NCBI GenBank assembly: GCA_003246335.1
Contig: QKAR01000152.1
Span: forward strand, 1-54,788
Reading direction: 5' to 3'
DNA length: 54,788 bases
Origin: Spirochaetales bacterium
GTDB lineage: Bacteria > Spirochaetota > Spirochaetia > Treponematales > Treponemataceae
Below are positions 1 through 23,621 of this stretch, piece by piece (the first letter of the stretch is position 1; every line of letters begins with the position of its first letter). A program made the translations under genes and the position numbers. The notes under the pieces are model-generated. The model had not been told where the DNA came from and made no database searches. It saw only the letters and a program-made list of their open reading frames with translations.

Positions 1-456
1 GCCGCGCTGGCGGGAAAGAGCCTCGTACGTATGGGCGAGTCGGGGAAGGGAATACTCGAGACGGGCCAGCTCAACCTGAAGGGACGCTTCCCTCGTCATG
101 GCACGCGCCGCGAAGATGCGGATAATGAGCTCCTGCCGGTCGATGCAGGTAATATCGGTCAACTTCTCCCAGTTGCGCTGCTGGGTAGGCGTAACCTCAA
201 AATCGAACACGATAAAATCGGCGTCGGTACCCCGCGCCTCGGCGGCGATTTCTTCCGCCTTGCCCGTTCCCATGCCGAACTTCGGCGACGGCTCAAAACG
301 CCGCAAAACGACGGCGCCGGCGACGTCGAAACCAGCCGTATCGGCCAAGCTCGCGAGTTCACTCACCGCGTCCGAATCCTCGACCGAGCGGTCTTCCGCC
401 TTGCCGACGAGCACGGCGATGGGCTTGCGTAGCGCCTCTTGTTCCAAGTCTATCAT
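1..456 (-). CDS. hflX: GTPase HflX, N-terminal part (runs off the left edge)
   Basis: The first 152 codons of a ribosome-associated GTPase that splits or rescues stalled ribosomes. The visible part is the N-terminal nucleotide-binding domain, with GMGTGKAEEIAAEARG, then a stretch ending TPTQQRNWEKL, and the family hallmark FAARAMTREASLQVELARLE followed by YSLPRL. The G domain lies beyond the left edge. The ATG at 456 is chosen because it begins a typical HflX N-terminus and a minus-strand TATAGT at 464-469 puts the transcription start at about 457, so the message may be leaderless; an in-frame GTG lies 9 nt further upstream. It is divergent from the acidic membrane protein gene at 554. Identity is secure; the exact start is less so. 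Confidence 0.9.
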   Translation of the reverse strand, partial: MIDLEQEALRKPIAVLVGKAEDRSVEDSDAVSELASLADTAGFDVAGAVVLRRFEPSPKFGMGTGKAEEIAAEARGTDADFIVFDFEVTPTQQRNWEKLTDITCIDRQELIIRIFAARAMTREASLQVELARLEYSLPRLAHTYEALSRQRG

Positions 457-14445: not shown

Positions 14446-14455
14446 GGTTTTTATG

Positions 14456-14461
14456 TATGAT
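14456..14461 (+). promoter_or_regulatory. -10 hexamer of the gene at 14468; +1 on the ATG
   Basis: TATGAT with expected +1 at 14468, the A of the ATG. No good -35 is seen, so this is supported only by its position. Confidence 0.4.
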
Positions 14462-14467
14462 AGAACC

Positions 14468-14857
14468 ATGACGGATATTGATAAATTTTATTCCGACGGA
14501 GAGCGCATCATGAAACGCGCCGCCGCCGCGCAGACGGGAAATAAGAAAATTGCGGAAGATCTCGCTCGACTCTTCCAAGTCGCGGCGCGCGGATACGATG
14601 TCATCGCGGAAAGTCTATCGAATTATTGGATTGCGACCTACGCTGACGGACTTTCGGGCGAAAACGAACGGAAAGCCGCGATTGAGTGGTTCGCGAACGT
14701 ACTGGCCCTTTTTGATGGGGAATTCATGCCGGACATGGATTTCGAGGATCGGGATTGGGATGAGATCAGGGAAACCGTTTCAGCCGAAGCCGAAACCCTC
14801 AACCTAGACGTTCTCACGTCGATAATGACGGTTATCGTGGAGCGAAAAAAAACGTGA
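14468..14857 (+). CDS. Hypothetical small acidic protein
   Basis: 129 aa, helical, acidic, no membrane segment, no family recognised. The N-terminal half (GERIMKRAAAAQTGNKKIAE) is basic and the middle contains a DMDFEDRDWDE acidic cluster. The ATG at 14468 is chosen over an upstream ATG (14453) because TATGAT at 14456-14461 puts +1 exactly there and no Shine-Dalgarno exists. It is divergent from the ptsN-like gene, and its stop is followed within 10 nt by the promoter of the structured RNA. Function unknown. Confidence 0.7.
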   Translation: MTDIDKFYSDGERIMKRAAAAQTGNKKIAEDLARLFQVAARGYDVIAESLSNYWIATYADGLSGENERKAAIEWFANVLALFDGEFMPDMDFEDRDWDEIRETVSAEAETLNLDVLTSIMTVIVERKKT

Positions 14858-14864
14858 TTTTTCG

Positions 14865-14893
14865 TTGACTTTCCGGAACTCGCGAACGATATT
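14865..14893 (+). promoter_or_regulatory. Promoter of the structured RNA
   Basis: TTGACT (14865-14870), 17-nt spacer, GATATT (14888-14893). Expected +1 is about 14900. Confidence 0.6.
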
Positions 14894-14899
14894 TAAGTC

Positions 14900-15194
14900 G
14901 TAGAGAGGAATGATCGACACCATACCGATAGAGGGTGTCCACCGCAGGCGCGTATTGGCGGGTGGGCACGGATGTACGAGACTCTGTGCGCGAAAAAAGG
15001 AGGGTTCCTTGACGGAAAATCCACCTGAGTTACGACGCCGGGGCGAACCCGGCTCGAGGCTATGATGAAGAACCTGCGGAGTCCAAGCGCAGGGAAAAAT
15101 AACCGTGGCCAAAGTTCGCCAATGAACGCGAACAACTCCCCGATGGGGGCAAAAGGCCCTGACAAGCCGGTAACAGACCGGCTTGTCTTATTTT
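14900..15194 (+). ncRNA. Unassigned structured non-coding RNA, about 295 nt
   Basis: A complete non-coding transcription unit between the gene ending at 14857 and the radical SAM gene. It has its own promoter (14865-14893) and an intrinsic terminator (15161-15194), and no credible ORF. By eye it folds into a chain of hairpins: 14916-14939 (GACACC/GGTGTC), 14940-14964 (CACCGC/GCGGGTG, one bulge), 14966-14989 (GCACGGA/TCTGTGC), 14999-15022, 15037-15053 (GCCGGG/CCCGGC), 15073-15093 (CCTGCG/CGCAGG), 15114-15133 (GTTCGC/GCGAAC) and 15138-15148. I looked for the signatures of RNase P, tmRNA, SRP RNA and the TPP and cobalamin riboswitches and did not find them. It could be a housekeeping RNA too divergent to recognise, a regulatory RNA or a novel family. 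Confidence 0.6.
15161..15194 (+). terminator. Intrinsic terminator of the structured RNA
   Basis: GACAAGCCGG, 7-nt loop, CCGGCTTGTC, then TTATTTT. A ten-base-pair perfect stem. The promoter of the next gene begins inside it. Confidence 0.9.
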
Positions 15195-15212
15195 AAACCC
15201 TCTTGGTATACT
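15183..15212 (+). promoter_or_regulatory. Promoter of the radical SAM gene
   Basis: TTGTCT (15183-15188, within the terminator stem), 18-nt spacer, TATACT (15207-15212). Expected +1 is 15219, 4 nt before the ATG at 15223; no Shine-Dalgarno. Confidence 0.55.
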
Positions 15213-15222
15213 CCGAAAAACC

Positions 15223-16191
15223 ATGGAACCACAGTACGAATCCTGCGTGGCATGCCCGCGCGCTTGCGCGATTAATCGCAATGAGGGCAAAACGGGCTAT
15301 TGCGGAGAGACCGCCGATATCAGAGTTTCCTGGGCGGGACTCCATTTCGGCGAGGAACCCCCGATAACGGGGACGGGCGGATCTGGCACGATTTTTATAA
15401 CCGGCTGCAACCTTCGGTGCAAATTCTGCCAAAATTTTCAAATTTCCCAAGACGGTCTCGGCCGCGCGGTTTCCTCGGACGACTTCGCGAAAATCGCGCT
15501 AAAACTCCAGGAAGCAGGCGCCGAAAACATCAATATCGTTACCGGGAGTCACGCGATACCCGCGATTGCGACGTGCCTGCGACTCGCGAAATCTCAAGGT
15601 CTTTCAATCCCCATCCTTTGGAATTCATCGGCCTATGAAACGACGGAAGCGCTCGATGTACTCGACGGGCTCGTCGACGCGTGGCTTCCCGACCTCAAGA
15701 CCCTCAATCCGCAGTTATCCGGCAATGTCTTTTTCGCCGAAAATTACCCCTCCGTCGCGAAAAAAGCGATACGCCGCATGGCTGAAAAATCCCCTCTGGT
15801 TTTTTCCGATGGGAAAGATGGCGTTACGCGGCTCGTTTCGGGCGTGATTGTCCGGCATCTCGCCTTGCCGGGCAAACTCGCCGATACGGAACTCGCGCTC
15901 CGCTGGTTCGCTGATCATCTGGAGGGAAAAGCCGCGCTTTCGCTCATGACGCAGTACACGCCGGTGAGCGCAAACCCGCAGGCGCGCGAAATCGACGCAT
16001 TCCCGAATCGGGCGCTCATCCAAGACGAATACGATCGACTTCTTGACTTGCTCGCGGAACTCAATATCGAAAATGGATTTTATCAGGAACTCGTCGCGGA
16101 CACCGAGTGGCTGCCGGACTTTACCCGAACGCAACCGTTTTCGTCTAAACTCGCCCGACCCATCTGGCATATGAGCGTCGGATTCCTTTAA
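15223..16191 (+). CDS. Radical SAM protein, PflX-type (pyruvate formate-lyase activase-like)
   Basis: 322 aa. The radical SAM cluster motif is CNLRCKFC at about residues 65-72 (CxxxCxxC), with an extra N-terminal cysteine set (CVACPRACAINRNEGKTGYC) typical of the PflX/YgcF-like subgroup. Members are annotated as putative pyruvate formate-lyase activating enzymes, but their substrates are not established. NIVTGSHAIPAI and DAWLPDLKTLNP are conserved in this group. No formate-lyase gene is nearby. It lies just after the structured RNA and its terminator but seems to have its own near-leaderless promoter. Confidence 0.8.
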   Translation: MEPQYESCVACPRACAINRNEGKTGYCGETADIRVSWAGLHFGEEPPITGTGGSGTIFITGCNLRCKFCQNFQISQDGLGRAVSSDDFAKIALKLQEAGAENINIVTGSHAIPAIATCLRLAKSQGLSIPILWNSSAYETTEALDVLDGLVDAWLPDLKTLNPQLSGNVFFAENYPSVAKKAIRRMAEKSPLVFSDGKDGVTRLVSGVIVRHLALPGKLADTELALRWFADHLEGKAALSLMTQYTPVSANPQAREIDAFPNRALIQDEYDRLLDLLAELNIENGFYQELVADTEWLPDFTRTQPFSSKLARPIWHMSVGFL

Positions 16192-22310: not shown

Positions 22311-23621
22311 TCAATCGATCTCCGCGAGCATGCGCTCAAGGGCCGCGCGGTCCAGAGGGATTTTTTTTACGCCTTGAATGGGTACGCCAAGGCTCAAGAT
22401 CGTCTCGGGAATCGGGACCGACGCGCCGCAATACTCGCGCAGTCGCTCTGCCTCGAACGCGGGATGATCCTTCGAGACTATAACGACCGAACCCTCGTCG
22501 GAAAAGGCCCGGTCCCGCATGGCGTCCAAGGCGCCGTAAGCCGCGGCGGCGGCCGAATCGATAACGACGCCCGTTTCCTTCCAAACGGAACGCACGATGC
22601 CGGGAATGTTTCCCCTCGGAACGGCCGAGGGAAACACGAGGCCGGTCAACATGAGGGGATTTACTGAAAACACCTGCTCAAGCCGCTCGATGTTCGACGG
22701 GCTCGCCGGGTCCGCAGCCCCGCGGTCGGGAAGTGGAATATGGGAATCGGCGCAAAGGCAGCGACCAGAAACGTCGCAGGAAAGGGCCGGCGTCGCGTCG
22801 GTGATGAAACCGTTGACGGGAAGCGAGAATTTCCAGGCGTACAGGCCGGCGACGAGATTGCCGAAATTCCCCGACGGGACCGCGTAAAAAATATCGCCTT
22901 GAACTTTTTTCCGGAGCCGCGTAAAGGCGTACATGTAGAAAAAAACCTGCGGCAGTAACCGCCCGATATTCATGGTGTTCGCGAGCGTGAGGCCGTATTT
23001 TTCCACGAGGTCTCGGCGACCGTATATTTCGCGAACGAGGGCCTGCGCGTCGGAAAGGGAACCATCGACCTCGACCGGAAAAATGTTCCCGCCGTTTGTC
23101 GCGAGCAGGGATGGCTCAATGCCGGTTGCAGTTCCTCGCGCATAGACGAGAATCATCTTGAGCCGGGACTTTCCGGAGAACGCCGTCGCCATGCTCTTGC
23201 CGGTCATCGCGCTCGTCGCGGCCATGACGACGGCGGTGCGATCTTCCATGGTCAGGATATGGTCGAGCGCGGACGCGAGCCACAGCAAGCCAAAATCCTT
23301 GTGGCATCCCGTGGGCCCATGAAAAAGCTCCAGGGAAAAAAGTTTCTCGCCCAACTGCCTCAGTTCCGGCGAAAAGCCGGCGAAGGCCTTACCGGCGATT
23401 CGCTCGGAAACGACGGGGCTGAATTCATCCTTCAGCAACGCGGAAGTCAGGGTGCCGGCTATCGAGGAAAACGACGAGGATTCGTCCATGTATAAAATCC
23501 ACGGGCGCAAATTCTCCTCGCTGGCGGGAACGTATAGGCCTCCGTCGTCCGGAATGCAGTCAAGTACCGCGTTTTTAAAACTAACCGCCTTTGAAAAGTT
23601 GCGGGTACTGACCAATTTCAT
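22311..23621 (-). CDS. thrC: Threonine synthase
   Basis: 436 aa. PLP enzyme converting O-phosphohomoserine to threonine. The N-terminus MKLVSTRNFSKAVSFKNAVL and DGGLYVP are typical; the PLP lysine is in FHGPTGCHKDFG (about residue 108), and SGNFGNLVAGLYAW is the phosphate-binding loop. The ATG at 23621 follows a clean GGAGG 7 nt upstream, so the four codons of the longer frame are dropped. Two TATAAT-like hexamers (23660-23665, 23670-23675) lie upstream, giving a leader of about 32 nt. No other threonine-pathway gene is in the window. Confidence 0.92.
   Translation of the reverse strand: MKLVSTRNFSKAVSFKNAVLDCIPDDGGLYVPASEENLRPWILYMDESSSFSSIAGTLTSALLKDEFSPVVSERIAGKAFAGFSPELRQLGEKLFSLELFHGPTGCHKDFGLLWLASALDHILTMEDRTAVVMAATSAMTGKSMATAFSGKSRLKMILVYARGTATGIEPSLLATNGGNIFPVEVDGSLSDAQALVREIYGRRDLVEKYGLTLANTMNIGRLLPQVFFYMYAFTRLRKKVQGDIFYAVPSGNFGNLVAGLYAWKFSLPVNGFITDATPALSCDVSGRCLCADSHIPLPDRGAADPASPSNIERLEQVFSVNPLMLTGLVFPSAVPRGNIPGIVRSVWKETGVVIDSAAAAAYGALDAMRDRAFSDEGSVVIVSKDHPAFEAERLREYCGASVPIPETILSLGVPIQGVKKIPLDRAALERMLAEID

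Follow-up and report, generated by a model that had tools for sequence, protein, structure and literature searches.

A predicted family of structured spirochaete RNAs in which early proline codons of a short reading frame keep a fixed distance from a hairpin

What is the stretch of roughly 295 nt that lies between the genes for a 134-residue hypothetical protein and a radical SAM protein on a spirochaete contig of 54,788 nucleotides (QKAR01000152.1, assembly GCA_003246335.1; the whole of this DNA is called the window below)? An original prediction, made from the letters alone, took it for a free-standing, highly structured RNA that has no credible ORF and belongs to no recognizable family. We compared the locus with its relatives in other genomes; the host genome (G000) comprises 3.05 Mb in 163 contigs and is 91% complete. 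The Rfam, homologue, and covariation checks proposed with the prediction came out in its favor, supporting the reading as an undescribed structured RNA, and, judging from sequence comparison, we consider it very probable that this is a real RNA family whose members carry a translated ORF.

The RNA Gene and Its Fold

With its own promoter and terminator (Table 1), the RNA is predicted to be an independent transcript, as expected of a dual-function small RNA. The promoter named in the original prediction is shared by the homologues of the genus, which have TTGAC(A/T)-16..18-GA(T/C)A(T/C)T at the equivalent place, TTGAC being invariant in the genus alignment; by itself it is weak evidence, since 4 such sites were counted where shuffled sequences give an expected 1.9. 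The terminator, originally given ten base pairs, has eleven and is followed by a U-rich tail. Several of the local hairpins that had been placed between promoter and terminator were recovered, and the minimum free energy of the window RNA is -120.1 kcal/mol compared with -94.5 +/- 5.2 for shuffles (z = -4.96; none of 200 shuffles equal). At the predicted 5' end (14900-14910) there is a genus-conserved, UAAGGAG-like (Shine-Dalgarno-like) stretch with no start codon nearby.

Table 1. Features of the RNA gene by window position
Feature	Position	Strand	Basis
Sigma70-type promoter	TTGACT 14865-14870, 17 nt, GATATT 14888-14893	+	Same element aligned in genus homologues
RNA gene, predicted independent transcript of ~295 nt	14900..15194	+	Promoter, terminator, folding, R2 match
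Shine-Dalgarno GGAGGG of short ORF	14999..15004	+	Same place in homologues
Short ORF, TTG start, MTENPPELRRRGEPGSRL-stop	15009..15065	+	Homologues at same place
ACG codon aligned with relatives' ATG	15012-15014	+	
Pro-Pro codons CCA CCT of short ORF	15021..15026	+	First Pro invariant, 63/63
Hairpin H2, GCCGGG-gcgaa-CCCGGC	15037..15053	+	10 nt past second Pro codon; compensatory changes in relatives
Hairpin H3, CCTGCG...CGCAGG	15073..15093	+	6/6 modelled pairs have two-sided changes among relatives
Three-way junction	15107..15158	+	Folding and covariation
Junction P1, GGCC	15107-15110 / 15155-15158	+	Covaries widely
Junction P2, GTTCGC	15114-15119 / 15128-15133	+	Covaries widely
Junction P3, CTCCC / GGGGG	15136-15140 / 15145-15149	+	Covaries mainly in genus
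Intrinsic terminator, GACAAGCCGGT / ACCGGCTTGTC, 11-bp stem (15161-15171 / 15177-15187), then U-rich tail	15161..15194	+	Stem kept in relatives

The proposed stems covary strongly. Already in a plain MAFFT alignment of 11 genus sequences the covariation is 0.149, compared with 0.101 +/- 0.012 in shuffled alignments (0 of 500 shuffles). Larger alignments of 39 and 68 sequences have compensatory changes at nearly every pair, far above shuffled and slid controls; these alignments, from which most of the covariation counts come, were fitted to the structure and so favor it. With this fitting, 27 of the 28 pairs change on both sides among the 68 sequences (325 cells vs. 84), covariation reaches 0.392 against 0.118 in shuffled and at most 0.065 in slid controls, and RNAalifold returns H2, H3, P1, and the terminator. 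Because the members share ancestry, member counts here and below are not independent observations.

Distribution among Spirochaetes

BLASTN with the window as query reached 7 other species of the genus, with a relative as query 11 of 12, and the covariance model found all 12. A first model (R1), built from the 11 genus sequences only, gave full-length matches in 9 of the family's 20 genera and also outside this family, in others. A second (R2), built from 34 sequences of which the window is one, matches the window full-length at 14992-15184 with 111.5 bits; of 394 genomes drawn from the order, 42 have a match of at least 40 bits. Members at class level, in several further families (genomes G510, G513, G755, G763, G766, and G769-G771), score 37-64 bits. 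As a negative control we took non-spirochaete loci chosen for carrying the same string of Shine-Dalgarno and ATGGANAAYCCNCC, and these reach at most 29.3 bits, mostly through matches of ~45 nt, so that 40 bits over the full length is a safe line. Matches below 40 bits were kept only where ORF and H2 were visible by eye: G414 scores only 27 bits, yet has the whole module (MACTDGPPWRKG, with a hairpin 9 nt past the second Pro), and the weak R2 matches L061, L161, L163, L177, L178, and L182, together with most matches below 30 bits, were discarded as false, lying in IF3/L35 or coding DNA or resting on the terminator alone.

Scanning named genomes for a Shine-Dalgarno sequence with ATGGANAAYCCNCCNGA recovered Brucepastera parasyntrophica, several termite-gut Treponema MAGs, Candidatus Treponema faecavium, and Candidatus Avitreponema avistercoris, among others; the named relatives recovered in this way are spirochaetes. 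Plasmid records gave no match to the RNA. Some genomes carry two copies, either in tandem (L026, 1492-1680 and 1777-1987), 3.5 kb apart (contig C22 of G012, at 22361 and 25854), or nearly identical on different contigs (G252, C1 at 67859 and C16 at 2279). Complete genomes whose size points to Treponema pallidum (1.1 Mb) and T. denticola relatives (2.8 Mb) gave no full-length match, which is perhaps why this large family, absent from Rfam although it extends across the treponeme order and into several more of the families in the class, has so far been overlooked.

The Short Open Reading Frame

The claim that the stretch holds no credible ORF did not survive the comparison, because a short ORF preceded by a Shine-Dalgarno sequence has homologues in essentially all relatives. 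Nearly every one of them has a Shine-Dalgarno sequence and an ORF of 6-29 codons beginning M-x-x-Pro-(Pro/Thr); in the genus alignment the Shine-Dalgarno sequence is followed by ATGGAnAATCCGCCTGA... and the ORF reads M-E/D-N-P-P-E/D.... The start codon is ATG in 62 of 63 members; in the window copy this codon has become ACG, and initiation would have to use a TTG lying three bases upstream. The invariant first proline is followed by a second Pro in 50 members, by Thr in 10, and by Ile in 3, so that strict Pro-Pro (EF-P) stalling would not be universal; Glu or Asp stands two residues before the first proline in 47 of the 63. EF-P is encoded in the host genome.

Across the 63 members, third codon positions rank with the most variable. 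Mismatch at the first Pro codon is 0.34 at the third position (G/A/C) against 0.00 at both the first and the second, and at the second Pro codon it is 0.69 (all four bases) against 0.33 and 0.09, respectively. This codon-type conservation points to translation of the short ORF, the second property expected of a dual-function small RNA, and the apparently translated ORF is the most conserved part of the RNA. Beyond about codon 6 the peptide varies freely, its total length being 6-29 residues, and the stop codon falls after H2 in 40 members, within it in 18, and before it in 5.

Distance between Prolines and Hairpin

The 3' arm of H2 was wrongly placed by MAFFT in the module of ORF and H2, and the hairpin spacing was therefore measured directly. 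Of 63 members, 43 have their best hairpin starting 9-10 nt past the second Pro codon, compared with 3 of 46 pattern-matched controls, and a spacing of 8-11 nt is found in 83% of the first 47 members vs. 15% of shuffles. Where the first proline is at codon 3, 5, or 7 instead of 4 (L059, L060, L167-L169, L175, L176, L183, and the window), the distance from Pro to hairpin is still 9-10 nt, while that from ATG to hairpin varies from 21 to 33 nt. Exceptions are L054, L055, L149, and L150, which keep Pro-Pro and have no hairpin at the fixed distance. A distance that is fixed to the codon and not to the start is expected if a proline-decoding ribosome meets the hairpin, which, by established ribosome geometry, would then begin at about +13/+14 from the P site, at the mRNA entry. 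A frameshift element was considered and set aside, as a slippery site is absent.

We propose the following explanation. The RNA would have three parts: a 5' region, then a short ORF that is translated, and a 3' region that covaries and ends in the intrinsic terminator. A ribosome would initiate at the strong Shine-Dalgarno sequence and make M-(E/D)-N-P-P-(E/D)..., and with the early prolines at the P site, H2, 9-10 nt downstream, would stand at the mRNA entry, where slow prolines and hairpin could jointly cause pausing or drop-off of the ribosome. How far the ORF is occupied would then reflect the state of translation (EF-P, EttA-type factors, Mg2+) and might set the folding, stability, or availability of a trans-acting 3' region.

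The same conservation could instead mean that the peptide is the product, the RNA being a small mRNA for a regulatory peptide of 6-29 residues (M-E/D-N-P-P-E/D...) whose flanks only control translation or stability. Amino acid conservation over the first six codons, synonymous changes at third positions, and the strong Shine-Dalgarno sequence would all suit such a product, but just the first 5-6 residues are conserved and the remainder is free in sequence and length, some peptides having only 6-8 residues (MEPIEL, METPPKRK). Moreover, the Pro codons hold their distance to the hairpin and not to the peptide ends, and such a product would leave the covarying 3' half to be explained separately; we regard a peptide as the sole product as unlikely.

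We think it distinctly less probable that this is an ordinary noncoding structured RNA, either a trans-acting small RNA or a scaffold, in which Shine-Dalgarno, ATG, and CCNCC form an untranslated motif. The RNA structure is strong and the Shine-Dalgarno sequence can pair with CCNCC in the genus, but the third-position pattern and the maintained reading frame speak for translation, the change of Pro5 to Thr or Ile breaks that pairing while the frame is kept, and the Pro-to-hairpin distance stays fixed while the start moves by whole codons. A hairpin of Shine-Dalgarno and CCNCC was for its part rejected as an explanation of why the ORF start is conserved, being lost in the Pro-Thr members.

Neighboring Genes

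The upstream gene (14453-14857, + strand) encodes the 134-residue hypothetical protein, for which Pfam and NCBIfam gave no match; at 14 loci, some of them in other genera and families, a relative of it precedes the RNA. The radical SAM gene is downstream in 12 loci, the window included. Both genes accompany the RNA throughout the genus and in certain other genera, and the synteny that was to be checked is thus partial: in many other members the neighbors differ, and the downstream gene is often convergent. Because neighboring genes vary or converge, we consider the RNA an independent gene and not a cis leader. A genus-conserved TATACT element (15207-15212) directly before the start of the downstream gene suggests a separate promoter for this gene. 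The element lies ~10 nt before the radical SAM ATG (15207-15223), so that the radical SAM transcript would be leaderless or nearly so. The free-standing nature originally claimed is thus borne out by the RNA's own promoter and terminator, the promoter-like element that the next gene has for itself, and the changing neighbors.

These arrangements bear on a further alternative, a cis leader (attenuator) of the radical SAM gene, in which the position of the ribosome on the short ORF would decide terminator formation. The 12 loci with this gene next to the RNA and the combination of leader ORF, hairpins, and terminator recall classical attenuators, and within the genus H2 (GCCGG/CCGGC) could pair across with the terminator (GCCGG/CCGGC). 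Against this, the next gene is a different and often convergent one in many members, the radical SAM gene has its own conserved TATACT element, and H2 of other genera reads GCCCC/GGGGC or GCCTC/GAGGC, with which cross-pairing to the terminator is impossible, so that attenuation by such pairing, possible in the genus only, was rejected. An attenuator is accordingly a slightly poorer prospect still than the noncoding RNA. A cis leader of the MgtL type was also rejected, there being no constant downstream gene to regulate.

Known RNA Families

A search of the window against all families of Rfam 15 at gathering score gave no match, and with E relaxed up to 10 only chance-level matches on the other strand (E 0.6-0.7) were obtained. 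Among 40 loci of relatives no family was matched either, the only hits being tRNAs in the flanks; the original statement that the RNA cannot be assigned to a known family therefore stands. The tmRNA and RNase P RNA of the host genome are on contigs C107 and C77 of G000, and since both lie at other genome sites the RNA is not a missed copy of either, as had been anticipated; their covariance models do not match the window, nor, in the search against all Rfam families, do those of 6S and SRP RNA. A diverged housekeeping RNA (6S, SRP, RNase P, tmRNA) or known riboswitch class, for which size and free-standing nature could be cited, is hardly credible given the lack of Rfam matches in the window and at the 40 loci, the tmRNA and RNase P RNA elsewhere in the genome, and a chain of hairpins with a three-way junction unlike the fold of 6S RNA, which is a single long hairpin.

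Searches of the literature, mostly non-subscription papers, for peptide strings (MENPPE and similar) or a spirochaete RNA family found nothing, and a prior description is possible. Small RNAs with a short ORF are a known kind; the family and its module of prolines and hairpin are new as far as tested. Established modes of small RNA action were also considered. An Hfq-dependent small RNA was rejected because no Hfq gene was found in the 91%-complete host genome, and a CsrA sponge with GGA in loops because GGA is not conserved (e.g., in the second copy of L026 and in L027). No conserved unpaired stretch resembling a target-pairing seed was found in the RNA.

Discussion

We favor the view that the RNA is probably dual-function. 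The full explanation, that the spirochaete class has a new family of structured, independently transcribed RNAs in which ribosomes pause on early prolines against H2, has in our judgment an even chance of being right. The pause is inferred from geometry, and that pausing at the prolines is the working element seems to us equally balanced on the comparative data; action of the 3' region in trans is possible, with the balance a little against it. More tentative is the broader idea that the ribosome itself is the ligand, a free-standing trans RNA sensing the state of translation (EF-P, EttA, Mg2+) throughout the class by means of a Pro-Pro-decoding ribosome parked against a hairpin, and here we would sooner expect to be wrong. 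If the ribosome does pause, the family would offer a simple natural system for studying the interplay of proline pausing, EF-P, and mRNA structure, as well as an example of translation state being read by an RNA that works in trans.

Three known systems come closest. Programmed frameshift stimulators place a structure 5-9 nt after the decoding site, and they likewise have a hairpin spaced from the decoding center to meet the mRNA entry of the ribosome; unlike them, the spirochaete RNA lacks both a slippery heptamer and a longer frame that a shifted ribosome could enter. In the MgtL leader peptide of mgtA, an early EPDP causes ribosomes to drop off (intrinsic ribosome destabilization), an effect that EttA relieves (PMC11282234). 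Early acidic residues and prolines are common to both (EPDP in MgtL, E/D-N-P-P-E/D here), as would be the use of ribosome pausing or drop-off at prolines as the sensing step, demonstrated for MgtL and proposed here from the spacing. MgtL, however, controls mgtA in cis on the same transcript, whereas the spirochaete RNA has its own terminator, variable neighbors, and a hairpin at a fixed distance from the prolines. The dual-function small RNAs VcdRP of Vibrio cholerae (PMC8672173) and SR1/SR1P of Bacillus subtilis (PMC7430163) share with it the layout of an independent, terminated, structured transcript carrying a small ORF; it differs from them in having no sequence relation to any Rfam family and in that its most conserved part is not a long conserved peptide but an early pair of proline codons spaced from a hairpin.
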